A stretch of 64,000 nt of DNA from Thioalkalivibrio sp. AKL19 (GTDB lineage: Bacteria; Pseudomonadota; Gammaproteobacteria; Ectothiorhodospirales; Ectothiorhodospiraceae). This document shows, in pieces, positions 2-57,064 of the stretch. The notes below the pieces were generated by a model. That model ran no database searches and was not told where the DNA came from. It saw nothing but the letters and a program-made list of their open reading frames with translations. The first letter of the stretch is position 1; each line of letters begins with the position of its first letter. The DNA lies in assembly GCF_000420165.1 (NCBI RefSeq), contig NZ_ATUK01000010.1, forward strand, positions 248,001-312,000, written 5' to 3'. Both the position numbers and the translations under genes were made by a program.

Positions 2-730
2 CGCTGGGTACGCTGGGGCGGCACGCTGGACGATCACCTGTGGCAGCGCCTGCGGCGCCTGGTCGAGTCCGCCAAGACCGAATGGAAAAACCCCGACCAC
101 GGGATCTGGGAAGTGCGCACGGCCGGACGACCGTTTACCTACTCCGCCGCCCTGTGCGCGGTGGCGCTGGAGCGCGGAGCCGCGCTGGCCGAGCACAATG
201 GCATGGGCGGGGACAGCGCCCTCTGGCGCGCCGAGGCGCGGCAGATCCACGAGGCGATCCTGGAACAGGCCTGGGACCCCGAGCTCCAGAGCCTGACCGA
301 ACATCTGGGCGGCGGCGGCATCGACGCAAGCCTGCTGGCACTACCCGGACGCGGCGTCATTCCCGCGGATCACCCGAAGATGGTCGCCACGACCGAGGCG
401 GTCGTGCGGCGCCTGGGCGCGGGGAACGGCCTGCTCTACCGCTATCTGCCGCAGGAATCCCCGGATGGACTGCCCGGACACGAGGGTGCGTTTGTGCTGT
501 GCAGCTTCTGGCTGGTGGACAACCTGCTGGGGCAGGGCCGCCTGGACGAGGCCCAAGCCCTGTATGACTCCCTGTGCGCACGGACCAACCACCTCGGCCT
601 GCTGCCGGAACAGATCGATCCGGCCAGCGGGACATTCCTCGGCAACTTCCCGCAGGCGTTCAGCCACGTCGGCCTGATCTCCACGGGCATCAAGCTGGCG
701 CGGGCACTGGAGCGAGACGCGGAGAGCTGA
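2..730 (+). CDS. Glycoside hydrolase family 15 (glucoamylase-like), C-terminal part
   Basis: The reading frame is open from the left edge, so only the last ~242 residues are visible. The protein should hydrolyse alpha-glucosidic bonds in an (alpha/alpha)6 barrel. Visible GH15 landmarks are the NPDHGIWEVR segment followed by FTYSAALCAVALERG, and the C-terminal LLPEQIDPASGTFLGNFPQAFSHVGLI block, which in this family holds the second catalytic glutamate (LLPEQ). An internal ATG at 113 is not the start, because conserved family sequence continues upstream of it. The substrate cannot be told from this fragment; trehalose or other alpha-glucans are possible. It lies 3'-to-3' against the carbonic anhydrase gene on the opposite strand, with 67 bp between them. 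Confidence 0.85.
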   Translation, partial: RWVRWGGTLDDHLWQRLRRLVESAKTEWKNPDHGIWEVRTAGRPFTYSAALCAVALERGAALAEHNGMGGDSALWRAEARQIHEAILEQAWDPELQSLTEHLGGGGIDASLLALPGRGVIPADHPKMVATTEAVVRRLGAGNGLLYRYLPQESPDGLPGHEGAFVLCSFWLVDNLLGQGRLDEAQALYDSLCARTNHLGLLPEQIDPASGTFLGNFPQAFSHVGLISTGIKLARALERDAES

Positions 731-797: not shown

Positions 798-1364
798 TCA
801 GTCGGTCGGCATCATCGACGAGTGGTGATGCACGATCTTCCACTCCCCGTCGCGGTTTTCGTACACGAAGGTGTAACGCGCGGGGACATCCTTGGTCTCG
901 CCGCCGTCGGTGACACGAAAGGTGTAGGTGCCGGCGTCGGTGAGCTTGTTGCAGCCGAGCTTCACGTTGCGGGTGTTGATCGTCCCAAAGGGCTTCTTCT
1001 CGAGGAAGTGCTCGAAGTAGTCCTGGATCTCGGCGTGCGTGGTGCGCGGGACGTTGGAGACAGTCGGCAGCAGCACCGCGTCCTCGGCATAGCGCTCGGC
1101 GACCTTGCGCGCGTCACCCGTCTGCAGGGCGGCGTTCCAGCCCTCGAACAGCTCCTCGGCCAGGCGGCGGGTCGCCGGGGCGCAAACCACGCAGCTCTCG
1201 TTCGGCGGGGTATCGATCGCGCCAAATGCGGGATCGCCCCCGGTCCCGGTGACCGGGTGGTGCTGGTCGCGATGCGAGGCACTCAGGCTCAGACGCGCCC
1301 GCGGCGCCTGATCGGCGTTGATGAACTGGGTGCCGCTGATGCGCGGCCGGCTGCTCGTGGTCAC
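798..1364 (-). CDS. Iota-class carbonic anhydrase with a CsoS2-like N-terminal extension
   Basis: This 188-residue protein has a CaMKII-association/NTF2-like domain from about residue 65 (CAPATRRLAEELFEGWNAAL) to a C-terminal WKIVHHHSSMMP. The HHHSSxMP ending, the LLPTVSN segment and the TYTFRV...ARYTFVYE strands are signatures of bacterial iota carbonic anhydrases (SgcJ/EcaC annotation group), which hydrate CO2. The GTG start is supported by GGAG 9 nt upstream; the longer frame runs back into cbbR and is not coding. Bacterial relatives usually begin with a signal peptide. Here the first ~60 residues are hydrophilic and contain RISGTQF and HPVTGTGG, resembling the VSGT/ITGT motifs of CsoS2 in the same locus. 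It sits 91 bp after cbbR, in the carboxysome orientation. Cytoplasmic, probably carboxysomal, placement is inference; family membership is fairly sure. Confidence 0.85.
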   Translation of the reverse strand: MTTSSRPRISGTQFINADQAPRARLSLSASHRDQHHPVTGTGGDPAFGAIDTPPNESCVVCAPATRRLAEELFEGWNAALQTGDARKVAERYAEDAVLLPTVSNVPRTTHAEIQDYFEHFLEKKPFGTINTRNVKLGCNKLTDAGTYTFRVTDGGETKDVPARYTFVYENRDGEWKIVHHHSSMMPTD

Positions 1365-1455
1365 TGCCTGATCTCCGAGTTCGGCCGTTAGCGGCCGGGT
1401 AATCCGTGAATTGTAAGGTACGCTCCCGGGCCTGTCATGCTCGCGACGGCGCCCG

Positions 1456-2490
1456 TCAAGTGGCCTGCGCCTTGAAGGCAGCGAGCAGGTCCTCGACCTG
1501 CCCGCGCACTCGCGCCTCGTCCTGAATGGCAAAGTCGAGGAAGGTCTGGGCGACGACCGACAGCACCTTCTGCTTGGGATGGACGATGTGCCACTGGCGG
1601 TGGATCGGGAAGTGCTCCACATCCAGCAGCGCCACCGGGCCACCCGCGCCTTCGGCGCTGAGGGTGTGCAACGACAGCACCGCGATCCCCAGACCACCGA
1701 TGACCGCCTGCTTGATCGCCTCGTTGGAGCCCAGCTCCATGCGCACGGTGGGGTTGATACCGTGTTCCTGGAACAGTTTAAGAGTCGCCTCGCGAATGCC
1801 GGACCCCGGCTCGCGCATCAGGAAGGTCTCCCGCTCCAGGTGCTCGATCGGGATGTTGCGCTGCCCGGCAAGTGGGTGATCGCGACTGGCCATCACCACC
1901 AGCGGGTTCGGCGCGAACGGGTACACGGCGATATCGGTCAGCCGTTCGGGTACGTGCCCGATGATGTACAGATCGTCATCGTTGTTGGCCAGGCGCTGCA
2001 GCACACGGTCGAAGTTGCTGACCTCCAGCGACAACTCGATATCCGGATAGCGCTTGGCGAACTGTCCCAGGATGGTCGGCGCGAAATACTGCGCGGTGGT
2101 GATGACCGCCAGGCGCAGGCGTCCGCGCTTCAGCCCGTGCATCTCCGCGAGCTTCATTTCCAGGTTGGTCAGGGCCCCCAGCATCTCGCGACAGGTGTCG
2201 TACAGCAGCAGGCCGACCTCGGTGGGGAAGGCCTTGCGCCCGACGTACTCGAACAGCGGCAGGCCAAGCGCGCCGGAGAGCTTCTTGATCTGGATGGAAA
2301 CGGTGGGCTGGGTCAGGTACAGCTCTTCCGCGGCGCGGGTGAAGCTGCCCAGGCGCACGATCGCCTCGAACACCTGCAACTGGCGGAGGGTCGCATGCCG
2401 GATCAGATGCGCCGGCAGCTCGGATTTCAGCATTACCTGTGGAAGGCTGGACTCCTTCGCCGGTGTCGAGCTGCTCCCCTTTTTGGCCAT
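1456..2490 (-). CDS. cbbR: LysR-type regulator of CO2 fixation, CbbR
   Basis: This 344-residue LysR family protein has its winged helix-turn-helix at about residues 30-90 (ATLRQLQVFEAIVRLGSFTRAAEELYLTQPTVSIQIKKL) and then a periplasmic-binding-like effector domain. CbbR proteins activate RubisCO operons in response to metabolites such as RuBP or NADPH. The HLIRHATLRQLQVFEAI stretch and the position directly behind cbbO support the assignment over other LysR proteins. The ATG at 2490 (MAKKGSS) is chosen; a longer frame begins at 2535 inside an inverted-repeat element and is unlikely. Unlike many cbbR genes it is not divergent from cbbL but lies at the far end of the cluster on the same strand, so it must act on the cbbL promoter 13 kb away. 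Confidence 0.9.
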   Translation of the reverse strand: MAKKGSSSTPAKESSLPQVMLKSELPAHLIRHATLRQLQVFEAIVRLGSFTRAAEELYLTQPTVSIQIKKLSGALGLPLFEYVGRKAFPTEVGLLLYDTCREMLGALTNLEMKLAEMHGLKRGRLRLAVITTAQYFAPTILGQFAKRYPDIELSLEVSNFDRVLQRLANNDDDLYIIGHVPERLTDIAVYPFAPNPLVVMASRDHPLAGQRNIPIEHLERETFLMREPGSGIREATLKLFQEHGINPTVRMELGSNEAIKQAVIGGLGIAVLSLHTLSAEGAGGPVALLDVEHFPIHRQWHIVHPKQKVLSVVAQTFLDFAIQDEARVRGQVEDLLAAFKAQAT

Positions 2491-2497
2491 GCTAGTC

Positions 2498-2709
2498 CCG
2501 TGACCCCTCGAGTTCGACGCATCCAGAGTTGCCACGATGCGCCATGAGGGTGTGGCGGCGCTTCATGGGCGCTTCCTCCGGACGAGCCACCCACCGGCCA
2601 TCAGCGGCGTTGCACGTGCCTGCAAGGAGACCCACCCTTCCCGCACAAGCGCGCCTTGCATCTGATTGGGCAGCGACTCGCTGGTCGTGTCGGACTCGAG
2701 GGGTCACGG
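2498..2709. repeat. 212-bp element with terminal inverted repeats between cbbO and cbbR
   Basis: Positions 2498-2513 and 2694-2709 are perfect 16-bp inverted copies, and pairing continues with a few mismatches to about 29 bp. The element fills nearly the whole cbbO-cbbR gap, ending 6 bp from the cbbO stop and 8 bp from the cbbR start. No coding capacity was recognised and no clear target duplication is seen. It could be a MITE-like remnant or a large hairpin that ends cbbO transcripts and carries the cbbR leader. Confidence 0.6.
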
Positions 2710-2715
2710 TACGCC

Positions 2716-5037
2716 CTACCGGGTGAGGCCTGCGTACAGCATGGGCAGCTTTTCCGGTAGCCGCTCGATATGGTCCAGCACCATGAAGTGCTGTGCGCCG
2801 AAGATGCGCTCCACGTACTCGTCCGCCTTCGGATCCAGGCTGATGCAGAAGCTGTAGACGCCGTTCTTGCCGACCTCTTCCACCGCACGCTTGGCATCCT
2901 GGCGCAGGTATTGCGGGTCGCGCACATCGGTGTCCGCCGGCTCGCCATCGGTCACAATCAGCAGCAGCTTCTTCTGCGTGCCCTGCTGATGCAGCAGGTG
3001 GCCGGCATGCCGGATGGCCGCGCCCATGCGGGTGGAGAGCTGCCCCTTCATCCCGGCCAGGCGGGCGCGGGCATGATCGTCATAGGGGGCATCGAAATCC
3101 TTGAAGCGGTAGTACTCGACGTCGTGGCGCCCGTCGGACGCAAAGCCATGAATGGCGAAGGGATCACCGATCTTCGAGATCGCCCCGCCCAGCAGCGCGG
3201 TGGCCTCGCGGGCCAGCTGCACCACGGTCGTCTCGCCATCGGCCAGGGTCTCGTTGGTCGACTCCGACAGGTCCAACAGCACCAGCACCGAGAGATCCCG
3301 CACCTGGCGGATATTGCGCACGTAGATGCGCTCGTCCGGCTGGCGCCGCATGCGCAGGTCAATCTGCGCCTCGACCAGGGCGTTCACGTCCAATTCGTCG
3401 CCCTCGGCCTGCTTGCGCAGGCGCTGCACGCCCTGCGGCTGCATCGCCTCGATCAGAAACTTCAGACGCGAGATCAGCGGCTTGTGCTTTTCGTTGATCG
3501 CGTCGATCTCTTCCACGTCGCCCTTCTTCGGGCGCCGCTCGAGCAGGGTCACCCAGTGCGGGCGCTCCAGCTGCATCTGGTAGTCCCACTCGTGGTAGTG
3601 GTACGGCAGCGAGAGCGGCTCCTTGCCCTCCTGCTGGTTGATGCTTTCCTCTTCGCCATCCCGGAACCATTCGGTCGCCAGCACCATGATCATCTGGGCG
3701 TCATCCCCGGCAAACGGGACATCCAGGGTGTTGATCATCTCCATGGGACTGACGTAGACGCGCTCCTGATTCGTACCGCTGGCCATCAGCGTCTCGAAAT
3801 CGTCTTCCTCGCGGCCAAACGCCCAGATGTAGCGGTTGTCGTCACGGTAGAGCACATCCGGCGCGACCTGACGCGGGTTCATGTACCCCTTTTCCGGGAA
3901 CTCGGGCGCCAGGGCCTCCGCCAGCTCGCGCGCCAGCCCCGGGGCCTCCAGATCGTCCGCCCGTTCGGCAAGGGCCGCCCGGGCCTTGCCCACGAACGCA
4001 TGGTCATCGCGGTAGTCGGGATCCAGCAGGGCCCGCGCGGTGCGGGCCAGCAGGGCCTGCGGCGCGTCGCCGTCGTCCGGGGTCGCGGTATGCAGGGGTG
4101 TCCAGAGGTTGCGCAAACCCGGGAAACCCCGGCTGGCCAGGGCCTCCACGCGGGCATCCTCGAACAACTCGGTCAGCACGCCGGTCACGCCGCGCGGCGC
4201 CTCCTCCGGCTGCATTTCGCGCGTGTAGACCACATGGGCCGCCGCATGGGCCGCCGCCGCACGGTAGAGATCCAGCCCGGTAAGGCCTTCCCAGTCATCG
4301 AAGGCATCCGGCAGGAAGATCGTGAAGCCCTCGATGTAGGGCTTGTAGCCTTCGCGCGACTCGAAATCGCCACTGGTCGGCCGCATGAAGAAGTCGCGCG
4401 CCCACAACGAACGCAGGTACAGGTTGATGCGGCGCTGGACGTCCACGAACAGCGTGCCACGGCGTTCCTTCTGGAAGACCGAGCGCGACTCGGGCGATTC
4501 CAGCCCGAAATACGCAATCTGCGCCTCAAGGTCGGTGCGATGGGCCTGTGCCCCCCAGCTTGCCCAGCGGCGCAGGCCGCCAAGGGTCAGGTGGGTCAGG
4601 AGCTCGTCCAGGTGTTCCAGCATCGGGCGAACGCCACGCGGCGCCTGCCCCAGCAGGTTGTCGACCAGGCGCAGATACCCGGAGAAAAGGCCCTGGTCTC
4701 CCAGGCGGCGGGCGGCGACCGGGCTGGTCGAGATCAGCAGCGTGATCACCGCGGCACTGGTCTTCGAGTACATCTTGATCGCCGAGCTCACCAGCTCGCC
4801 GACCGCGTCCTCGCCCAGTTCCTGCGCCACGTCCGGCGTCTCCTGGACGAAGGCGATGACCATCTCGGAGCCGCGACCGAGGGAATGCAGGCTGCGCGCG
4901 CCCTCCAGGTAGTAGCGCTTCAACCCCCCTGCACTGAACGCGCGCGAGGCCTCCTGCCACGACGCCTCGAGGACCTCGGCGGCCTGGTCCCCGAGGTCTT
5001 CGAGGAGGTCCTGATAGTCCTCCAGATGGATGCTCAT
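2716..5037 (-). CDS. cbbO: RubisCO activase adaptor CbbO (VWA domain)
   Basis: CbbO pairs with the AAA+ ring CbbQ to release inhibitory sugar phosphates from RubisCO. The 773-residue length fits the family. The C-terminal third is a von Willebrand A domain with a MIDAS of DLSES form (LDLSESTNET) and a later VTDGEPADTD segment, which binds RubisCO in characterised CbbQO systems. The N-terminal part is the helical CbbO-specific region. It starts 19 bp after the cbbQ stop and is the last gene of the carboxysome operon before the inverted-repeat element and cbbR. Confidence 0.93.
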   Translation of the reverse strand: MSIHLEDYQDLLEDLGDQAAEVLEASWQEASRAFSAGGLKRYYLEGARSLHSLGRGSEMVIAFVQETPDVAQELGEDAVGELVSSAIKMYSKTSAAVITLLISTSPVAARRLGDQGLFSGYLRLVDNLLGQAPRGVRPMLEHLDELLTHLTLGGLRRWASWGAQAHRTDLEAQIAYFGLESPESRSVFQKERRGTLFVDVQRRINLYLRSLWARDFFMRPTSGDFESREGYKPYIEGFTIFLPDAFDDWEGLTGLDLYRAAAAHAAAHVVYTREMQPEEAPRGVTGVLTELFEDARVEALASRGFPGLRNLWTPLHTATPDDGDAPQALLARTARALLDPDYRDDHAFVGKARAALAERADDLEAPGLARELAEALAPEFPEKGYMNPRQVAPDVLYRDDNRYIWAFGREEDDFETLMASGTNQERVYVSPMEMINTLDVPFAGDDAQMIMVLATEWFRDGEEESINQQEGKEPLSLPYHYHEWDYQMQLERPHWVTLLERRPKKGDVEEIDAINEKHKPLISRLKFLIEAMQPQGVQRLRKQAEGDELDVNALVEAQIDLRMRRQPDERIYVRNIRQVRDLSVLVLLDLSESTNETLADGETTVVQLAREATALLGGAISKIGDPFAIHGFASDGRHDVEYYRFKDFDAPYDDHARARLAGMKGQLSTRMGAAIRHAGHLLHQQGTQKKLLLIVTDGEPADTDVRDPQYLRQDAKRAVEEVGKNGVYSFCISLDPKADEYVERIFGAQHFMVLDHIERLPEKLPMLYAGLTR

Positions 5038-5056: not shown

Positions 5057-5860
5057 CTAGAAGAACGTCGTCACGGCGGCGTCAAGGGCGTCGCGCATGT
5101 CGGGGTCGTCCGTGATCGGACGGACCAGCGTCATGCGGCAGGCGGCCAGCGGTGCAACCCCCTTCGCAATCAGGGAGGCGGCATACACCAGCATACGGGT
5201 CGAGATACCCTCGTCGAGTCCATGCCCCTTCAGGTTGCGTGCGCGTTCCGCCACGCTGACCAGTTTCCCGGCCATCTCCTCGTTCACGCCACCCTCATGG
5301 GCGACGATTCGCGCCTCGGTCTCGTGTCCGGGATAGTTGAAGTCCAGTGCGCCGAAGCGCTGCTTGGTGGACTCCTTGAGATCTTTCATCAGGCTCTGGT
5401 AGCCGGGGTTGTAGGAGATCACCACCTGGAAGTCGGGGTGCGCCTCGACCATCTCGCCCTTTTTCTCCAGCGGCAGCACGCGACGGTTGTCCGTCAGCGG
5501 GTGGATCACCACCGTGGTGTCCTGGCGCGCCTCGACAATTTCGTCGAGATAGCAGATGGCCCCGTGACGGGCGGCCTGGGTCAGCGGACCGTCCTGCCAG
5601 CGGGTCCCGTCGGCATCCAGCAGATAACGACCGACCAGATCCGAGGCCGTCATGTCTTCGTTGCAGGCCACGGTGATCAGGGGCTTGCCCAGCTTCCACG
5701 CCATGTGCTCGACAAAGCGCGTCTTGCCACACCCGGTCGGGCCCTTGAGCATCATCGGCATGCGCACCGAATAGGCCGCCTCGTACAGCTCCACCTCGTC
5801 GGCGGTCGGCTGGTAGTACGGTTCTGCGGTGATCAGGTGATCGCGTAACTCGTCCTGCAT
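5057..5860 (-). CDS. cbbQ: RubisCO activase AAA+ motor CbbQ
   Basis: This 267-residue MoxR-type AAA+ ATPase has Walker A GPTGCGKT near residue 40 and Walker [11 protein letters not shown] near residue 100. It forms hexamers that hydrolyse ATP and, through CbbO, remodel inhibited RubisCO. The N-terminal [19 protein letters not shown] segment and the C-terminal region are typical of CbbQ rather than the denitrification protein NorQ, and the neighbours (mcdB upstream, cbbO downstream) agree. In alpha-carboxysome bacteria this pair can associate with the shell. Confidence 0.95.
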
Positions 5861-5919: not shown

Positions 5920-6312
5920 TCAGTCGGGCCAGATCCGCTCGGGATGCAGCTCGTTCCCGGTATTGTCCGCCTTGGACGACTTCTTCGCCGCCGGCTTCTT
6001 CGCGGCCGGGCTCTTCTTGGCCTGGGAGGAGGCCGCCGTGCCCGCCGTCTTCCGGGCCGTCGCCGGCTTCTTGCGCGCAGTCGTACGCTTGCGCGCAGGC
6101 GCCTTGCGAGTCGTCGTCGCCGCCTTCTTGGTGGCGGCCGTCTTGGTGCTGGCCGCGGCCCGCGGCTGGCTGCTCGCTGGCTCCTGGCTCGTGTCCTTCT
6201 GGGCCTCGGCCTGCGCGTCGGCCTTGGCTGGGGTTTCCTGGCTCTTGTCCTTGTCCTGGTCCTCGCGCGCACTGCGCACGCCGGCTGCCAGCTTGTCTTG
6301 CAGATTGCTCAT
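5920..6312 (-). CDS. mcdB: Carboxysome positioning adaptor McdB (alpha type)
   Basis: McdB links carboxysomes to the ParA-type ATPase McdA so that they are spaced over the nucleoid. This 130-residue protein has a short N-terminal segment (MSNLQDKLAAGVRSAR), a long low-complexity middle rich in Ala, Lys, Arg and Thr, and a C-terminus ELHPERIWPD. A conserved tryptophan near the C-terminal end is the hallmark of alpha-McdB proteins. The ATG overlaps the mcdA stop (ATGA at 6309-6312), so the two are translationally coupled. The lysine/alanine-rich middle resembles histone H1-like tails and may touch DNA. The assignment rests on context and the C-terminal signature, because the middle is too biased to compare. 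Confidence 0.82.
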   Translation of the reverse strand: MSNLQDKLAAGVRSAREDQDKDKSQETPAKADAQAEAQKDTSQEPASSQPRAAASTKTAATKKAATTTRKAPARKRTTARKKPATARKTAGTAASSQAKKSPAAKKPAAKKSSKADNTGNELHPERIWPD

Positions 6313-6944
6313 TGCGACACCTCCTCGATGATGGCTTCGATCTCCGCCGCCGCGGCCTCGCCGGGCTTGCCAAGATCAAAGACGGAACAGCCCTCGAGTG
6401 CCGAGCGCCGGTAGATGGCCCGCCGGCGCAGCGTCTGCTCCAGGGCGGGGATGTCGATCTCCATCAGTGCGTGCTTCATCGCGCGCGACAGGGCACTGCG
6501 GACCTCGAGCTGATTGACAACGATAAACGGCCGCAGGCCGGGGTTCCTGAGCCGCGCCTCTTCCAGGCCGCGCCCCATCCGGACACTGCCCCACAGATCA
6601 ACGGGGGACGGCAGGACCGGGATGAGAACCTCGTCGGAGGCCCCCAGCGCACCATTGACCGCGCCGCCTTCCAGGGTTGGCGGACAGTCGACCACGATGT
6701 ACTCGTAATCCTTGCGCAGCGCCTGGAGCTCGCGATCAAGCGGACCGGCCACCGCGAACACCGAAGCCGGGAACGGACGTTCGTCGGAGGCCATACGGGC
6801 CCATTGCCCCGCCGAGCCCTGCGGATCCGCATCCACCACGAGGGTTCGTCCGCGCCGCGCGAGCCCGGCGGCCAGGTTCATGGTCAGGGTGGTCTTGCCC
6901 GTCCCACCCTTTTGATTGACTACCGCGATTACCCTCGAACCCAC
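6309..6944 (-). CDS. mcdA: ParA-family carboxysome positioning ATPase McdA
   Basis: This 211-residue ParA/MinD-like ATPase carries a deviant Walker A (KGGTGKTT with the signature lysine) at the N-terminus and a VVDCPP switch segment. McdA binds nucleoid DNA as an ATP dimer, and McdB on carboxysomes stimulates its ATPase to create gradients that distribute the organelles. The short length without an N-terminal DNA-binding domain fits McdA rather than a chromosomal ParA. It overlaps mcdB by 4 bp and follows the acRAF gene. Confidence 0.9.
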   Translation of the reverse strand: MGSRVIAVVNQKGGTGKTTLTMNLAAGLARRGRTLVVDADPQGSAGQWARMASDERPFPASVFAVAGPLDRELQALRKDYEYIVVDCPPTLEGGAVNGALGASDEVLIPVLPSPVDLWGSVRMGRGLEEARLRNPGLRPFIVVNQLEVRSALSRAMKHALMEIDIPALEQTLRRRAIYRRSALEGCSVFDLGKPGEAAAAEIEAIIEEVSQ

Positions 6945-7754: not shown

Positions 7755-8069
7755 TCAGCTGGCCGAACCGTTGGCGCTCGGGGCCGTCGGCAGGATGCCT
7801 TCCACTTCGGAATGCACGCGCGCAATGATGTGCGCAGCCACCAGGCCGTCACCGACACGCTCGCAGGAATCCGCACCGGCACGCACGGCGGCGTTCACGG
7901 CGCCGGTTTCGCCACGGACCAGCACGGTCACGTAGCCGCCACCCACGAACTGACGACCGATCAGGCGCACTTCGGAGGCCTTGGTCATCGCATCCGCGGC
8001 TTCAATCGCCGGCACCAGACCGCGGGTCTCGATCATGCCGAGGGCCACACCAGAAATTTCGCTAGCCAT
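7755..8069 (-). CDS. csoS1B: Carboxysome shell hexamer protein CsoS1 (CsoS1B position)
   Basis: This 104-residue single BMC-domain protein builds the hexameric facets of the alpha-carboxysome shell. It is almost identical to its two neighbours over the BMC core (ALGMIETRGLVPAIEAADAM, then KASEVRLIGRQFVGGGYVTV), including the conserved GG pore region, but has a slightly longer tail (EGILPTAPSANGSAS). Naming follows gene order (1C, 1A, 1B). The ATG at 8069 is preferred over the one at 8072. A terminator-like hairpin lies just upstream, so this gene and those after it may be transcribed less than the other shell genes. Confidence 0.93.
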   Translation of the reverse strand: MASEISGVALGMIETRGLVPAIEAADAMTKASEVRLIGRQFVGGGYVTVLVRGETGAVNAAVRAGADSCERVGDGLVAAHIIARVHSEVEGILPTAPSANGSAS

Positions 8070-8085
8070 CATCTACCTCTTCTTG

Positions 8086-8120
8086 AAAAAAGCCGCCGGG
8101 GCCCGCTGGGACCCGACGGC
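8086..8120 (-). terminator. Intra-operon terminator-like hairpin between csoS1A and csoS1B
   Basis: On the minus strand, 8120-8108 pairs with 8104-8092 (13 positions with one mismatch and one G-T), followed directly by six T at 8091-8086. This is the form of an intrinsic terminator, yet it stands between genes of one operon, so partial termination or a 3'-end processing point is more likely than a full stop. Confidence 0.75.
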
Positions 8121-8136
8121 GTTCGACTACCGCGAG

Positions 8137-8430
8137 TTACGGCTTTTCCGGGAGGATGTTTTCCACCTCGGAATGGACGCGAGCAATGATGTGCGCGGCC
8201 ACCAGGCCGTCACCCACCCGTTCGCAGGAATCCGCACCGGCACGCACGGCGGCGTTCACGGCACCGGTTTCGCCACGGACCAGCACGGTCACGTAACCGC
8301 CACCCACGAACTGACGACCAATCAGGCGCACCTCGGAGGCCTTGGTCATCGCGTCGGCGGCTTCGATCGCCGGCACCAGACCGCGGGTCTCGATCATGCC
8401 GAGGGCCACACCAAAGTTTTCGCTAGCCAT
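8137..8430 (-). CDS. csoS1A: Carboxysome shell hexamer protein CsoS1 (CsoS1A position)
   Basis: This 97-residue BMC-domain shell protein differs from the other two copies mainly at the N-terminus (MASENFGVALGMIETRGLVP) and the C-terminal tail (EVENILPEKP). The body, from ETRGLVPAIEAADAM to VGDGLVAAHIIARVHSEVE, is the same as in its neighbours, which points to recent duplication or gene conversion. It forms hexamers with a central pore thought to pass bicarbonate and sugar phosphates. The hairpin at 8086-8120 follows it. Confidence 0.95.
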   Translation of the reverse strand: MASENFGVALGMIETRGLVPAIEAADAMTKASEVRLIGRQFVGGGYVTVLVRGETGAVNAAVRAGADSCERVGDGLVAAHIIARVHSEVENILPEKP

Positions 8431-8461
8431 TACTCAACTCCTATCAAGCGTTACAGATGAA

Positions 8462-8761
8462 TTACTTTTCAACCTGCTCGGGCAGGATGCTTTCCACTTC
8501 GGAATGCACGCGGGCGATGATGTGCGCGGCCACCAGGCCGTCACCCACGCGCTCGCAGGAATCCGCACCGGCACGCACGGCGGCGTTCACGGCGCCGGTT
8601 TCGCCACGGACCAGCACGGTCACGTAACCGCCACCGACGAACTGACGACCGATCAGGCGCACTTCGGAGGCCTTGGTCATCGCATCGGCCGCTTCAATCG
8701 CCGGAACCAGACCACGGGTCTCGATCATGCCCAGCGCCACACCAAAACGTTCAGTTGCCAT
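8462..8761 (-). CDS. csoS1C: Carboxysome shell hexamer protein CsoS1 (CsoS1C position)
   Basis: This 99-residue BMC-domain protein is the first of three csoS1 paralogues and follows csoS4B. The N-terminus is MATERFGVALGMIETRGLVP and the tail ends EVESILPEQVEK. The BMC core is the same as in the next two genes. It forms hexameric tiles of the shell facets and is a docking surface for the [IV][ST]G motifs of CsoS2. Confidence 0.95.
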   Translation of the reverse strand: MATERFGVALGMIETRGLVPAIEAADAMTKASEVRLIGRQFVGGGYVTVLVRGETGAVNAAVRAGADSCERVGDGLVAAHIIARVHSEVESILPEQVEK

Positions 8762-8802: not shown

Positions 8803-9135
8803 TCACGCCGCCTTGCGGGAACCAGCAGAGCGCTGTGCATCGGTCTGGTCTCGTCCTGCTTCGTCCTTCGACCCTTCCGTCTTCTTTCCACCATCGTCCC
8901 AGTGGTCGATGATGCCGCCGATCGTGAGATCGGTCTGAATGCTGTTGTCGTCGAGCGCGTAGCGTGCCGCCGAACCACTGATCGTGAACACCCAGTTACC
9001 CGGATGGGCCCCGACCGTATCGACCGCGACGTTCAGCGCCCCCTTCTGGTCCACCAGCACGCGCAGCGACATGGTCTTCAGCCCGTCGACGCGACGGGTC
9101 ACCACCAGTTCGTCCTGCACCTGCATGATTTCCAT
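8803..9135 (-). CDS. csoS4B: Carboxysome shell pentamer protein CsoS4B
   Basis: This 110-residue BMV-fold (EutN/CcmL-type) protein caps shell vertices as pentamers. The core MQVQDELVVTRRVDGLKTMS...GNWVFTISGSAARYA...LTIGGIIDHWDD is shared with csoS4A next to it. The charged C-terminal tail (GGKKTEGSKDEAGRDQTDA) is longer than in CsoS4A. The start at 9135 (MEIMQVQDEL) is chosen because it aligns with CsoS4A and lies just past the csoS4A stop; the upstream in-frame extension reads through csoS4A. Confidence 0.92.
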   Translation of the reverse strand: MEIMQVQDELVVTRRVDGLKTMSLRVLVDQKGALNVAVDTVGAHPGNWVFTISGSAARYALDDNSIQTDLTIGGIIDHWDDGGKKTEGSKDEAGRDQTDAQRSAGSRKAA

Positions 9136-9139
9136 GGAG

Positions 9140-9391
9140 CTACTGCTCCTCCCAGTAATCGATGATCCCCACGATCGTCGCGTCACTGGGGTAGGACTTG
9201 TCACCGGCCGCTTCGCGCGCCGCCGAACTGCCCACCACGATCACCCAGTCCCCGGGTACGCAGCCAACCGCGTCCACCGCGACCGTCCGCGGGCCACCGG
9301 CCTTCTCCTGGACCACCAACAACGGCCGGTGGCCCAGATCGCGGATGCGGTTGGTCGAAACCAGCGTCTTCTCAACCTTGCAGATCTTCAT
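9140..9391 (-). CDS. csoS4A: Carboxysome shell pentamer protein CsoS4A
   Basis: This 83-residue vertex protein of the CcmL/EutN fold has MKICKVEKTLVSTNRIRDLGHRPLLVV at the N-terminus and a GDWVIVVGSSAAREA segment where pentamer loops form, ending IVGIIDYWEEQ. It precedes csoS4B by 4 bp and follows csoSCA by 17 bp. CsoS4A and CsoS4B close the 12 vertices and keep the shell tight to CO2 leakage. Confidence 0.95.
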   Translation of the reverse strand: MKICKVEKTLVSTNRIRDLGHRPLLVVQEKAGGPRTVAVDAVGCVPGDWVIVVGSSAAREAAGDKSYPSDATIVGIIDYWEEQ

Positions 9392-9408: not shown

Positions 9409-10962
9409 TCAGGCGGCCAGCGGTTCCAGACGGCTTCCGCTACGCTTGTCGCGGATCACCATGTGGCAACCGATCAGGCCCTTCTCTGCCAGGTCGCGAT
9501 AGCGATCCATGATCTGGTCGCGGATGCGGCGGCAACGCGCCTCCACCCGTTCCCGCGATCCCGGCACCTTGCGGTCATAGCGGTAATGGATCACCACCGG
9601 CACCGGCAGGCCGCGCTCGACATTCAACTTCCGAAAAATCTTGTTGACCCCGACGTCCGTGCCTTCGGAGCCCTCTTCCATCGTCTCCAGGTGAGCGAAG
9701 TACCCGAAATTGCGTACCTGCATCTCCTCGATCTCCTGACCGACGATGATCACGCGTTCCCGGTGGCCGACATCGACGTAATGCCCACCGTGGTAGCGCG
9801 CGACATAATCCAGCTGCGAAATATTGTTCAGCAGCAGCCGCGAGATCAGTCGCAGCATCCCTTCGTGCGGCGCTCCGTTGCCGCGCCCCCAGCCCTGCTG
9901 GTGGATGGCGTCCTGGATCGCCTGGTATACCCGCAGTGACGCGGCCTGTTCGTCCAGGCCCTGCGTCGCGCGATACAGCTCCGCGCTGTCGACGAAGCGG
10001 TACAGGCTCATCCGCGTATCGGCGTCCGGAATGTGGATCTTCACCGCATCCGTGTCCGTATCCACGCCGATCAGCAGGGTGTCGACCGAGGCCCCACAGC
10101 AGTAGGTGTTCTCGATCGCCTGGCGGAACGCGCGCAACTGGTGCAAGGCCCCGTCCGCCGCGTCGCGTTCGCTGTTGCCGTGTGCCGCGCAACCCTGGTG
10201 CAGCGGGTCGGCGCCACTGTAGTGGTACGCCGCGATCTTCAGATAGCGGCTCGGGACATCGGCCGTCGTCGGCCGCCCCTCGCGGAATCGCAACAACTCC
10301 CGCTTGGTCCAGTGGCGCACGTCCTCCTCGATGTCGAACTGCGCGCCCGCGTAGCTCTTCACCCGCACCGCCAGATCCGGCAGCCGCAGGATGAAGCGCC
10401 GCAGCCCCAGCAGCCGCCCGTCCGAGCACGGCGAGATGTCCACCTCGTGAAAGTCGCAGTCGAGGAAATACGCGATCGCGCTTTCCGCTTCCGCCACCAG
10501 GTCATCACGCCCGGCCCAGTACTCGTTGACCACCTGATCGAACAGCTCGAACGTCCCGTGCAGGTACAGCTCGCGCGTGTCCAGATCATTGATCCAGGCG
10601 TCCTCCAGGGCCTTCTCCGGAAGCCGGTACCCCAGTTGTTCCTGGACAATCGCCTGCGCCCGTTCCTCGAAGTCGCGTTCGTGCTGTAGCGCGTGCACTT
10701 CCTTCAACACCGGCACCAGCTGCGCGAAACGCTCCCGGAACCCTCGTTCGAAGGCATGCAGGCGTTCGTTCATCGCGACATCGGCCAGCGGATGCCCGGG
10801 TTGCAGCTCCCGCGTCAGCTCCGAATCCGAAGCGCCACGCTTGGCCGGCGGGACAGCGGACACGGGCGCCGACGGCGCCGGGCTCGCCGCGCGCGCAGCC
10901 ACAGCCCGGGACTTCGCGAAACGCGAGCCCAGGGGACTGTTCTTGCGGCGACCTCGCACCAT
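9409..10962 (-). CDS. csoSCA: Carboxysomal carbonic anhydrase CsoSCA (CsoS3)
   Basis: CsoSCA dehydrates bicarbonate to CO2 inside the shell next to RubisCO. The 517 residues contain a basic, disordered N-terminus (~50 residues) that in known systems binds RubisCO, then a helical domain, the catalytic domain and a C-terminal domain. Likely zinc ligands are Cys179 (DISPCSDGR), His247 (AAYHYSG) and Cys258 (HQGCAAHG); their spacing matches the characterised enzyme. It lies between csoS2 and csoS4A as in the standard order. With the iota enzyme at 798-1364 the locus encodes two unrelated carbonic anhydrases. Confidence 0.96.
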   Translation of the reverse strand: MVRGRRKNSPLGSRFAKSRAVAARAASPAPSAPVSAVPPAKRGASDSELTRELQPGHPLADVAMNERLHAFERGFRERFAQLVPVLKEVHALQHERDFEERAQAIVQEQLGYRLPEKALEDAWINDLDTRELYLHGTFELFDQVVNEYWAGRDDLVAEAESAIAYFLDCDFHEVDISPCSDGRLLGLRRFILRLPDLAVRVKSYAGAQFDIEEDVRHWTKRELLRFREGRPTTADVPSRYLKIAAYHYSGADPLHQGCAAHGNSERDAADGALHQLRAFRQAIENTYCCGASVDTLLIGVDTDTDAVKIHIPDADTRMSLYRFVDSAELYRATQGLDEQAASLRVYQAIQDAIHQQGWGRGNGAPHEGMLRLISRLLLNNISQLDYVARYHGGHYVDVGHRERVIIVGQEIEEMQVRNFGYFAHLETMEEGSEGTDVGVNKIFRKLNVERGLPVPVVIHYRYDRKVPGSRERVEARCRRIRDQIMDRYRDLAEKGLIGCHMVIRDKRSGSRLEPLAA

Positions 10963-10986: not shown

Positions 10987-13900
10987 TTAGCCGCGCGCCC
11001 CGCCGGACAGCGTCACCAGAGAACCGGCGTCGCTGTTCCCGGAGGAACCGGTGATTCGGCTCGGGGGCACATCCTTGCGCTCCAGTTCCCGGTTCACATA
11101 GGCGCTACGGCCTTCACCCCGGGGATTCCCCTTCTGCGTAGCGTTGCGCCGGGTGGACATCCCTTCGGTACCAGTCACCCGGTCCCCGCGTCCCCAGTCA
11201 TCGCCGGTAATGGAAATACCATTGCTGCTGCCATTCACCGTCACGCGGTCCGCGCCGACCTTCTGGCTTTCGTCGACCGGCGCGGCAGCCACCTGCTGCT
11301 GTCCGCCGTTGTAGCGGAACTCCTCGGTACCGGAGACCAGGCCCATCGCTTTGTTGATCGAACCCGTCAGTCGCCCACTCGTGCCATAGGCCGTCCCGGT
11401 GACGCGTTCGCGGCGTTCAGCCGCCGACCGGGCCGGCGTCGCCACGCTGAAGCCCGCGTTCGGCATCGGACGCTCCTGCGCCTGCGGGGCCACCTGAGCC
11501 GGGGCGGCCTGCATCCCTTCCGGCCGCAGACGCGGATGAAGGTTACTGGCGGCACTGGCGCAGGACTGGGCGAACTCGTTCGCGCCGACATACGGGGCAC
11601 CGGAGACGTCCTGGCACGCACCGCGCTCGGTACCGGTCACACGCTCGTCGTAGCCCGGCTGGCTCCCGGAGATCGCATGGCCCGGGGTCGAATGGCGCTC
11701 GGCCACGCGGGTCTCCGCCACCCGGGAATCCTGTGTTTCGCAGAACTGATCGTACTGATCCGGGCCGATGTAGGCGGTGCCGCTAACCGGTTTGCAGGCG
11801 CCGTACTCGTCACCCGTCACCCGGGTCGAACGGCCGACTGCCGTACCTGAGACGGACTGGTGGTTCCAGGTGCGGCCCACGGTGACCTTCTCGGGCGCCG
11901 CTTCCGGGCGCTGGCCACCGCAGAACGCGTCGTAGTGCTCGGAACCGGCGTATTCGGTCCCGGTAATCGGTTTGCAGCCGCCGTACTCGTCGCCGGTGAC
12001 GTGGATGGAATGATCCACTTGGGTCCCCGAAACTTCCCGGCCACGCAGGGTGTGCATCACCCCGACCTTGGGCACCCCGCCGGCGGCGGGCTGCTCACAC
12101 AGATCGCCGAAATCCGACTTGTTGTAATACGGGGTCCCGGTCAGCGACTTGCAGGAGCCGCTCTCGTTGCCGGTCACCTTCGAGCTGCGGCCCACGGCCA
12201 CGCCGGTAACGGTCTGGTCTTCCATCGTATGGGATTCCTGCACCTTGGCCGGCGTCGGCTCCGGGCGCGTACCGCAAAAGCCCTGGAACTGTTCCGTGCC
12301 GAGATATTCGGTCCCGGTGACCGGCTTGCAGCTGCCGTATTCGTCACCGGTGACATGGACGGAGCGCCCGACTTCGGTACCGGTCAGTTCACGACCGCGA
12401 AGCGTGTGCATCACGCCGACCTTCATCGGCGCTCCGTTGGACTTTCCCGAGTTGCAGGGCACCTCACTGGCGGCCGTGTTCAGGTACTCGGTACCCGTCA
12501 CGTCACGGCAGGAGCCCGATTCGTCGCCGGTCACCTTCGGGCTGCGCCCGACCGAGGTGCCCGAGACGCCTTCGCCCTGCCGCGTCATCATTACGCTGGT
12601 GCGCGCCGGGCCCGCCTGCGGACGGGTGCCGCAGAAGCCTTCGTACTGTTCGGTACTCAGGTATTCCGTGCCGGTAATCGTCTCGCAGGATCCCCGCTCG
12701 TCACCGGTCACGCGCGACGAACGTCCAACTTCGGTTCCGCTGACGGACTGGCCGTGCGCCGTGTGCGAGGCACCCACCTTGGGCGGATTGCCCGAGGGGC
12801 GAACGCCGCAGTACCGATCGTAATGCTCGGCGCCCAGATATTCGGTTCCGGTTATGGACGAGCAGCTGCCCGCCTCCGTGCCGGTCACGCTGGAGGTGCG
12901 CTCCACCTGCGTGCCACTGACGTGGCTGCCGGCCAGCGTGGTGCCTTCCTCGACCTTGGGCGGGGCATCGCCCTCGGCCGGACGCGGACGACCGCAGGGA
13001 CGGCCCGGTTCGGAGGAGCCGCGGCCCAGCTTGCAGAGTTCTTCGCGCCGCTGGCGGGCCACTTCGCGCGTGGACATGCCCTTGCGCTTGGCGGCCTTCC
13101 AGGCGCCTTCTTGCGGCAGCGTGCCGCGGGCCTGCCCGCTCTTGAAGCGGCGGCGCAGGGCCTGCTTGCCGTTCTGGGCCATCGCATCGCGGCGGGCCAT
13201 GCAGATCGCCCGAACCTCGGAGATCATCGGATGCGGACCGGCGGCCTCGCCCCCGGACTCGACCTTGTCACACAGCTGGTCCAGGCCGCTCTCGACCACC
13301 GGATCCCCCTGGGTCGGGGGGGTATCGAAGGTCTCGTTACGCCCGGACTTGTCGCCCTTGCAGCCACAGCCGCAGTCCTTCTTCGCTTCCTCGCGGCCGG
13401 CCGCGACCGGCTCGGTCCCCTTGAGGCGATCTTCGCGCCGGGGCTCGGGCGCCATGGCCTTCTTACCGTCCGTGGACAGGGCTTGACGCCGCAGGCGGCA
13501 GATCTCGCGACCGCTCATGTTCGAGCAGTCGACCTCGACGTTCTGCGACTGGGCCAGCGCCTCGAGCTGGCGCGAGCGATCGGCACCCGCGCGGGCCATG
13601 CCGCCGGAAACCTGCGCCCGCGTATTGCTACGGCCCACGGCTTTCTTGCCCTGGCGCGCCATCTTCTGGCGACGCTCGAGGGCCGCCTGGCGGCCGTTGG
13701 AGGCCCCCGCGTGCGCGCCCGGTTGCGGACGCCGCTCGGGGGTGGTATCGCGGGTCTCAACCGAGACCGGCGACGTCGATTCACTGGAGTGCGTCTCCGG
13801 CTCCCGCGCCTGGGGTGCCGGGGCGGGTTCCGCTTTCGCCTGGCGCGCCTGTTGCGCGGCCGCGGCGGAACGGCTGTTCCCCTTGTTTTGGCCGGTCGAC

Positions 13901-13998
13901 TTCACGGCAGCCTTGCCATTGCGAGACATGGCCTTGCGCCGTTCCAGGGCACGTTCACGCCCCGAGAGACCTTCAGACGCAGATGTCGGATTACTCAT
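10987..13998 (-). CDS. csoS2: Carboxysome scaffold protein CsoS2, long form
   Basis: CsoS2 is the disordered organiser that joins RubisCO to the shell. At 1003 residues it is longer than the usual ~800-900. The N-terminal region has about five basic RubisCO-binding repeats (such as RERALERRKAMSRNGKAAV, near residues 12, 101, 162, 259 and 307). The middle region (about 350-815) has eight repeats of the pattern VSGTxVGRSxxVTGDExGSC-xxITGTEY-...C. The C-terminal region carries further VTGT/ITG motifs and ends with RITGSSGNSDAGSLVTLSGG, the conserved shell-binding peptide. Cysteine pairs recur in each middle repeat. Whether a frameshifted short form is made was not resolved. Confidence 0.96.
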   Translation of the reverse strand: MSNPTSASEGLSGRERALERRKAMSRNGKAAVKSTGQNKGNSRSAAAAQQARQAKAEPAPAPQAREPETHSSESTSPVSVETRDTTPERRPQPGAHAGASNGRQAALERRQKMARQGKKAVGRSNTRAQVSGGMARAGADRSRQLEALAQSQNVEVDCSNMSGREICRLRRQALSTDGKKAMAPEPRREDRLKGTEPVAAGREEAKKDCGCGCKGDKSGRNETFDTPPTQGDPVVESGLDQLCDKVESGGEAAGPHPMISEVRAICMARRDAMAQNGKQALRRRFKSGQARGTLPQEGAWKAAKRKGMSTREVARQRREELCKLGRGSSEPGRPCGRPRPAEGDAPPKVEEGTTLAGSHVSGTQVERTSSVTGTEAGSCSSITGTEYLGAEHYDRYCGVRPSGNPPKVGASHTAHGQSVSGTEVGRSSRVTGDERGSCETITGTEYLSTEQYEGFCGTRPQAGPARTSVMMTRQGEGVSGTSVGRSPKVTGDESGSCRDVTGTEYLNTAASEVPCNSGKSNGAPMKVGVMHTLRGRELTGTEVGRSVHVTGDEYGSCKPVTGTEYLGTEQFQGFCGTRPEPTPAKVQESHTMEDQTVTGVAVGRSSKVTGNESGSCKSLTGTPYYNKSDFGDLCEQPAAGGVPKVGVMHTLRGREVSGTQVDHSIHVTGDEYGGCKPITGTEYAGSEHYDAFCGGQRPEAAPEKVTVGRTWNHQSVSGTAVGRSTRVTGDEYGACKPVSGTAYIGPDQYDQFCETQDSRVAETRVAERHSTPGHAISGSQPGYDERVTGTERGACQDVSGAPYVGANEFAQSCASAASNLHPRLRPEGMQAAPAQVAPQAQERPMPNAGFSVATPARSAAERRERVTGTAYGTSGRLTGSINKAMGLVSGTEEFRYNGGQQQVAAAPVDESQKVGADRVTVNGSSNGISITGDDWGRGDRVTGTEGMSTRRNATQKGNPRGEGRSAYVNRELERKDVPPSRITGSSGNSDAGSLVTLSGGARG

Positions 13999-56369: not shown

Positions 56370-56677
56370 CCCCCAGGCCGGGGCCCCGTGCCCCGGCCCT
56401 TCTCCCGCCAACTCCTCCGCCCCCGTCATTGCGAGGAGCCGAAGGCGACGTGGCAATCTCTGTCCGGCACCACTAGCGTTCGACAGCCTGCGCAGTGCCA
56501 GCGGTGGGAGATTACTCGCTGCGCTCGCCCTTCGGGCCGGCCTTTGGCCGTTCAACGCAGCTTCGCTGCTTTTTGTGCTTCGTCGCTGCGCTCTTCGCAA
56601 TAACGGGGCGGGGGTATCATTCGCAATCGCCAGCCCTCCCCGGCACCATCACCGGTAAACCCCAGGCCCCACAACGC
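56370..56677. repeat. REP-like repeat region, first copy
   Basis: About 56510-56605 is an extragenic repeat with inner hairpins; an inverted copy of it lies at 58536-58632. Just before it, cgtcattgcgaggagccgaa (from about 56424) is the common proteobacterial REP-type sequence. The small frames here are shadows of the repeat. Confidence 0.8.
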
Positions 56678-57064
56678 ATGAGCACCCAACACTCCGGCAA
56701 CCCCAAGGACCACCCACAGGCCCCCCGCCTGCGCGTACTGCTGGGCGAGGTCACGGCCATGGGCCCGGGCAAGGCCATGCTGCTGGAGGCCATCCGCGAC
56801 AAGGGCTCGATCTCCGCGGCCGCGCGCAGCGTCGGCATGTCCTATCGCCGCGCCTGGGACCTGGTCGAGACCATGAACCAGAGCTTCCGCGAGCCCGTGG
56901 TGGCCACCGCCAAGGGCGGCGCTGGGGGTGGCGGGGCTCAGGTCACCGCATTCGGCGAGACGGTGCTGGCGCGCTACCGCGACATGGAACGCAAGGCCTG
57001 CGAGGCCCTGCGCGACGAACTGCACACCTTCGCCGACTTCCTCGCCGACGACTACGAACCCTGA
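56678..57064 (+). CDS. modE: ModE-like molybdate-responsive regulator, DNA-binding domain only
   Basis: This 128-residue protein has the LysR-type winged helix of ModE (GPGKAMLLEAIRDKGSISAAARSVGMSYRRAWDLVETMN) and a dimerisation helix, but lacks the C-terminal di-mop molybdate-binding half. Single-domain ModE proteins are known and may sense metal through other proteins or not at all. A glycine-rich stretch (GGAGGGGAQ) follows the HTH. It lies near modABC but is separated by nupC. Confidence 0.88.
   Translation: MSTQHSGNPKDHPQAPRLRVLLGEVTAMGPGKAMLLEAIRDKGSISAAARSVGMSYRRAWDLVETMNQSFREPVVATAKGGAGGGGAQVTAFGETVLARYRDMERKACEALRDELHTFADFLADDYEP

Follow-up and report, generated by a model that had tools for sequence, protein, structure and literature searches.

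How carbonic anhydrase (CA) enters alpha-carboxysomes is disputed, the choice lying between a Rubisco-mediated and a shell-mediated route. Rubisco reportedly recruits CsoSCA by way of an N-terminal peptide of the latter (PMC12918739). CsoS2 contacts His79 of the shell protein CsoS1A through (V/I)(T/S)G triplets, and both shell binding and growth in air depend on these (PMC10484944, PMC11365436). The classical BMC encapsulation peptides are short helical domains (PMC12339742). An iota-class CA has been identified in the carboxysomes of Thiomicrospira (PMC12628692), where CsoSCA is absent according to Wieschollek (2024) as cited (compare Ng et al., 2025; PMC12646314), and a 2026 review restates the presence of this carboxysomal iota-CA and raises a possible adaptation to alkaline conditions (PMC12918739).

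The window analysed here, a stretch of 64,000 nucleotides from Thioalkalivibrio sp. AKL19, contains a gene for an iota-CA with an N-terminal extension (798..1364, minus strand; 188 aa, GTG start), which lies at the end of the cso cluster, 91 bases downstream of the LysR regulator gene cbbR (1456..2535, minus strand). The preliminary description had placed it on the same strand directly after cbbR at the end of the cluster, and the coordinates (1364..798 against 2535..1456) agree. The cluster continues upstream, all on the minus strand, with a cbbO-like gene (2716..5037; position and homologues), a cbbQ-like AAA+ gene (5057..5860; translation, profile match and homologues), and an mcdB-like (5920-6312) and a ParA/mcdA-like gene (6309-6944) that together occupy 5920..6944, the ParA product matching NF041546 at 6.4e-58. 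These are followed by three csoS1 shell genes (7755..8761; translations and homologues), whose products would offer the putative docking surface, by two csoS4-type pentamer genes (8803..9391), of which that at 8803-9204 matches PF03319 and the other was recognized from its translation, by an intact csoSCA ORF for the standard carboxysomal CA (9409..10962; 517 aa), and by csoS2 (10987..13998; 1003 aa with 28 [IV][ST]G triplets; PF12288, 8.6e-232). The names cbbO, cbbQ, mcd and csoS1, and the csoS4-type name of the second pentamer gene, are those that we presume to apply. Upstream of the iota-CA gene is a ribosome-binding-type sequence, GGAGA (1372..1376, minus strand), which, like the GTG start, is invariant in all 16 upstream regions that were aligned. 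A promoter-like ATGACA-17-TACAAT (1410..1438, minus strand) lies between cbbR and the iota-CA gene, and a similar pair of boxes was counted by eye in 11 of the 16 regions. Antisense to the gene is a long open frame (822-1391, plus strand; 189 aa) that is probably a high-GC artefact, and the converging gene beyond (2-730, plus strand) encodes the end of a glycosyl hydrolase family 15 protein (PF00723, 1e-32).

The assignment of the product to the iota-CAs in the preliminary description is borne out. The domain (residues 63-188; 801..1178, minus strand) has the NTF2-like alpha+beta barrel of the CaMKII_AD type, with matches to Pfam CaMKII_AD over residues 71-186 (1.5e-21) and to TIGR02246 (3.5e-18), and the HHHSS signature is at residues 179-183 (816..830, minus strand). 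The metal-free iota-CAs 7C5V, 7C5X and 7C5Y share the NTF2-like fold, and their HHSS motif aligns, but they are 23-28% identical to the window protein, and no CsoS2-like tail is mentioned in the available text of their accounts.

It is the N-terminal extension that distinguishes the window protein, and here too the earlier observation stands as it was made: a segment of about 60 residues (residues 1-60; 1185..1364, minus strand), which we regard as a candidate shell-docking tag, contains ISGT within RISGTQF (residues 9-12; 1329..1340, minus strand) and VTGT within HPVTGTGG (residues 38-41; 1242..1253, minus strand), and has no signal peptide or other export signal. In the structure model residues 1-44 are predicted to be disordered (pLDDT < 50), and the extension contains only two 3-residue helical turns and no confident helix. 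Thus the tail is like the classical BMC encapsulation peptides in being fused to a would-be cargo enzyme, but lacks their short amphipathic helix.

Two such triplets are in themselves weak evidence, given the rate at which they arise and their recurrence elsewhere in the window. Among 54 window gene proxies, in which the iota-CA gene itself is displaced by the antisense frame, the frequency of [IV][ST]G with CsoS2 excluded is 0.0012 per residue; two in 60 residues would be expected by chance with P of about 0.0024 per protein, and one of the 54 proxies (56495-57064) also has two within its first 60 residues. It is conservation that counts, and on this ground we reject a chance origin of the motifs as highly improbable. 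The tagged class is defined by a first triplet near the N-terminus, so that its presence in 35 of 35 entries is by construction; a second [IV][ST]G, however, occupies the same position in 33 of the 35 (34 unique) tagged entries, which come from several families. The exceptions are L147, with VTQ at this position, and L156, with nothing there, both of them within 20 kb of cso genes. Even at 50-56% identity the triplets are retained, I alternating with V and S with T, and their glycine is constant save for the second motif in L147 and in L156. Close Thioalkalivibrio sequences were paired with the window in 10 comparisons, not mutually independent; in these, dN/dS of the tag is 0.04-0.21 and the two four-residue motifs have undergone no nonsynonymous change at all. 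In 11 more distant comparisons dN/dS of the tag reaches 0.53 where computable, and motif codons are altered in six (L052, L058, L059, L060, L061 and L131). The conserved positions of the tag comprise both triplets and a stretch, RxSLSxSxR, between them. The extension is thus conserved and under purifying selection, and it is specific within the family, since a tag profile run against 47 family genomes recovered 18 iota-CAs and no other protein below E 0.02.

The middle and C-terminal repeats of CsoS2 resemble the tag in carrying (V/I)(T/S)G triplets, the hallmark of CsoS2-type shell-binding chains, in a disordered chain, and the first tag motif, ISGTQFI, is of the CsoS2 ITGTEYL type with F replacing the conserved Y. 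There are also clear differences. The two triplets of the tag are separated by 29 residues, whereas CsoS2 has many at a spacing of about 8 residues, and that spacing with its conserved Tyr and Cys pairs is not found in the tag; given the wide spacing and the F for Y, we do not file the protein as a CsoS2 relative. Full-sequence scores of the tag profile, taken without composition correction, exceed at least 196 of 200 shuffles for 13 of 13 CsoS2 proteins (some of them partial), and reversing the triplets abolishes this excess in 11 of the 13, again without the correction. With the HMMER composition correction on, only 7 of the 13 pass the same threshold of 196 shuffles in 200, and the score of the window CsoS2 is reached by 139 of its own 200 shuffles. 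No single-segment match between tag and CsoS2 was significant, and best-domain scores lie mostly within those of the shuffles. Homology of the tail to a CsoS2 segment is unsupported, with an hhalign probability of 1.3% against the window CsoS2. The likeness does not go beyond the triplets, and this is what short motifs of independent origin would be expected to show.

What the tail would bind is a separate question. It could belong to a carboxysomal cargo and yet bind CsoS2 or Rubisco instead of the shell tiles; the reported recruitment of CsoSCA through its N-terminal peptide is a precedent for this, the conserved RxSLSxSxR stretch might serve such a contact, and the first motif was the only part that hhalign aligned with CsoS2. 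We consider this unlikely, given that both triplets are among the conserved positions and that such triplets are the shell contacts of CsoS2. Docking of the tail on the shell is, judging from the motifs, the fairly probable alternative, and that the tail is a native cargo-docking tag which copies the shell-binding triplet of CsoS2 we put at about an even chance. Thus, of the encapsulation tail proposed in the preliminary description, the association with the carboxysome is well supported, while shell binding by the tail is a plausible inference.

The Thiomicrospira and window systems have in common an iota-class CA, a host that is a sulfur chemolithoautotroph from an alkaline habitat, and, as seen in a Thiomicrospira-like genome, the gene order cbbR-iota-CA. 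They differ in that the iota-CA is taken as the carboxysomal CA in Thiomicrospira, CsoSCA being absent, whereas csoSCA is intact 8 kb away in the window. The Thiomicrospira enzyme was reportedly found in carboxysome enrichments, with growth at low CO2 lost on its disruption, and iota-CA is said to be distributed more widely among alkaliphilic autotrophs. In a Thiomicrospira-like genome (G180), which we take to be Thiomicrospira cyclica, cbbR is followed by iota-CA, a Ham1 gene, a gene for a BMC-domain protein that is probably CsoS1D, and a second, diverged iota-CA; at L172 (4340-6824), a Thiomicrospira-like cso locus, a Ham1 and a BMC-domain gene lie between two tagged iota-CA genes, the second copy lacking the second triplet. 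The tag of the G180 iota-CA, QITGTSGID...AITGSG, has two triplets, and the protein falls on the same branch as the window protein. In a tree of 88 domains, which does not include L105, L108 and L130 and in which some near-identical family members have no row, all 34 tagged rows are on this one branch, with support of 100/99. The window protein and that of the Thiomicrospira-like cso locus are therefore orthologues of common descent, and the window gene, positioned after cbbR, is encoded in a carboxysome locus as in the Thiomicrospira type. Since iota-CA in Thiomicrospira carboxysomes has already been published, the suggestion that no system of this kind had been described must be withdrawn.

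The same branch holds a single untagged row, the second copy of G039, which has a signal peptide instead. Since it shares the branch with the tagged rows, the tag was probably gained once and then swapped once for an export signal. The copy (L020, 1501-1890; also seen in L010) lies in tandem after the tagged gene, an arrangement that has the appearance of export after duplication.

The distribution of the tag follows that of CsoS2. Two short peptide patterns, run against GTDB genomes, yielded 68 loci (22 tagged and 46 tagless), to which were added the family of G051, with 9 of 27 genomes tagged (five of them new), and a class sample of 369 genomes searched at a cut-off of E 1e-20, which gave five further tagged genomes. 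Duplicates (G284 = G049, G394 = G105 and G487 = G106) and genomes reached twice were counted once, and G039, with one tagged and one untagged, exported copy, was counted as tagged. On this basis a tagged iota-CA is present in 36 distinct genomes, 35 of them with CsoS2; the exception is G185, 84% complete, in which CsoS2 was not found. A tagless homologue is present in 55 genomes (46 + 9), none with CsoS2. These 55 leave aside six distant homologues (G114, G116 and G118-G121; 28-33% identity), with which CsoS2 is found in 4 of 61, although L108, which at 33% is no closer, is counted among them. Fisher's test of 35/36 against 0/55 gives 2e-24, uncorrected for kinship, a value that is overstated because the distribution is clustered by kinship. 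Four of the distant, tagless homologues, L137, L136, L133 and L134 in the CsoS2 genomes G116, G119, G120 and G121, end in QHHSSQIP. Within the family of the window the tagged protein occurs in 18 of 47 genomes, all with CsoS2; CsoS2 itself is in 37 of the 47, and 19 of these 37, some of them incomplete, have no iota-CA gene. A nineteenth family genome (G011) has an untagged iota-CA with a signal peptide. The premise that bacterial iota-CAs are usually exported does not hold among these sequences: by a crude hydropathy test, with starts picked by script, a hydrophobic N-part is present in only 15 of 54 tagless homologues, and in 28 of the 54 the N-part is shorter than 15 residues.

As for the expectation that such extensions occur only near cso loci, it is nearly true at the level of the genome, as the CsoS2 counts indicate, but not by position. 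Genes of the cso cluster are within the flank at 16 of 22 tagged loci, with cbbR upstream in 14 of the 16, and the remaining six, from Halothiobacillus, Guyparkeria and two more lineages, are free of cso genes within the stretch examined, which in one case is only 5 kb. In the Halothiobacillus and Guyparkeria types there are no cso genes within 10 kb, and in three single-contig cases they are 0.5-0.7 Mb away. This separation, and the adjacency of the window gene to cbbR with its own promoter-like site, would suit a cytosolic or regulatory NTF2-like protein that is linked to cbbR and not encapsulated, its triplets serving something else. We regard this as quite improbable, in view of the co-occurrence with CsoS2 in all but one tagged genome, the branch shared with proteins of a Thiomicrospira-like locus when the Thiomicrospira iota-CA is reported as carboxysomal, and the harm that a free cytosolic CA would do to the CO2-concentrating mechanism (PMC10880623); encapsulation gains weight from this last point, since such an enzyme would short-circuit the mechanism. 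It is very likely, then, that the window iota-CA is associated with the carboxysome.

The enzyme would there have the company of CsoSCA, as the preliminary description supposed. With csoSCA intact in the window, replacement of CsoSCA by iota-CA in Thioalkalivibrio is rejected, and the window iota-CA represents a co-occurring variant. The two have the same proposed place and reaction and are encoded in the same cluster, but CsoSCA is a beta-class zinc enzyme and the iota-CA is NTF2-like, and CsoSCA is described as being recruited by Rubisco, or through shell contact of a nonspecific kind that involves no defined shell peptide. CsoSCA is present in 21 of 24 tagged genomes tested; in G180 and G243 CsoS2 is present while CsoSCA gave no match, and G185 has neither. 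In G467, a fragmented genome with a tagged iota-CA as well, CsoS2 is on both of two contigs (C7 and C206), and on C206 a CsoSCA frame runs with a stop at the contig end. Two papers on Thioalkalivibrio genomes and transcriptomes list CsoS3 (= CsoSCA), one adding other CAs, and in their available text we found no mention of an iota-CA gene (PMC5328954, PMC5744179).

One genome with both enzymes, G113, appears from its sequence to be that of Halothiobacillus neapolitanus, for from residue 2 to residue 514 its CsoSCA is identical to the solved HnCsoSCA. Its tagged iota-CA (L131 / L157; L131 protein, MIKPNPIRVSGTRF...) reads RVSGTRF...AITGE and is encoded about 0.7 Mb from CsoS2. Loss of the carboxysomal CA in alpha-carboxysomes leads to a high-CO2 requirement, and mutant carboxysomes lacking CA have been described in H. 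neapolitanus (Dou et al., 2008), from which it seems that, under the conditions used, the iota-CA of this organism does not replace CsoSCA. The same requirement, with the frequent presence of CsoSCA, lends some credit to the view that the iota-CA is encapsulated but minor, conditional or inactive, CsoSCA doing the work where both exist. The Anabaena and Bigelowiella iota-CAs are described as showing no obvious HCO3- dehydration, the direction needed in the carboxysome. The catalytic residues reported for all2909 are T106, Y124, H197 and S199; in 57 sequences, with residues equated by order and motif and not by superposed coordinates, T101, Y116, H181, S182 and S183 of the window protein are invariant and H180 is at least 90% conserved. 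This invariance and the strong purifying selection on the domain speak against a minor or inactive role, which we judge to be rather unlikely.

Our preferred reading is that the gene product is an iota-class, probably metal-free CA and a carboxysome cargo, whose CsoS2-like tail docks on the CsoS1 shell so that it works beside CsoSCA, and taken as a whole we hold this to be probable. The two (V/I)(T/S)G triplets of the disordered tail would imitate CsoS2 and attach the enzyme to the inner face of the CsoS1 tiles, and a dimer, if formed as in the solved iota-CAs, would present four triplets per particle. We infer that in Thioalkalivibrio the enzyme is active and inside the carboxysome, where it would convert HCO3- to CO2 for Rubisco next to CsoSCA. 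There may be a physiological reason for having two CAs, perhaps that the iota form is favoured at high pH or low metal.

While the kind of system has been described for Thiomicrospira, two aspects are apparently new: the co-occurrence of iota-CA with CsoSCA in most of the tagged genomes tested, what appears to be H. neapolitanus included, and the CsoS2-like [IV][ST]G tag as a candidate shell anchor. A search of the literature for a CsoS2-like tag on a CA, or for a tagged second CA, found neither, and this is weak support for novelty, as the search missed the Greek letter and did not cover Wieschollek (2024). Since the gene is present in what we take to be H. neapolitanus, a genetic model, the mass-spectrometry and mutant data already published can be re-examined without delay. 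The protein is not among the QconCAT targets listed in the available text of PMC9040747.

In summary, the tail motifs suggest how iota-CA enters the carboxysome, and a separate CA whose CsoS2-like tail is compact and conserved would provide a clean test of the route of entry. If the tail is a true shell tag, it would offer a small tag, already at hand, with which enzymes could be loaded into shells, and alpha-carboxysomes would gain a direct cargo-to-shell route besides those of CsoS2 and of CsoSCA through Rubisco. The number of cytoplasmic CA genes in carboxysome-bearing autotrophs has been called 'a bit alarming' in a review (PMC10880623), and a tagged carboxysomal CA would explain some of these puzzling genes. 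Many sulfur oxidisers, among them H. neapolitanus, would in that case have two unrelated CAs in the carboxysomes that they build.
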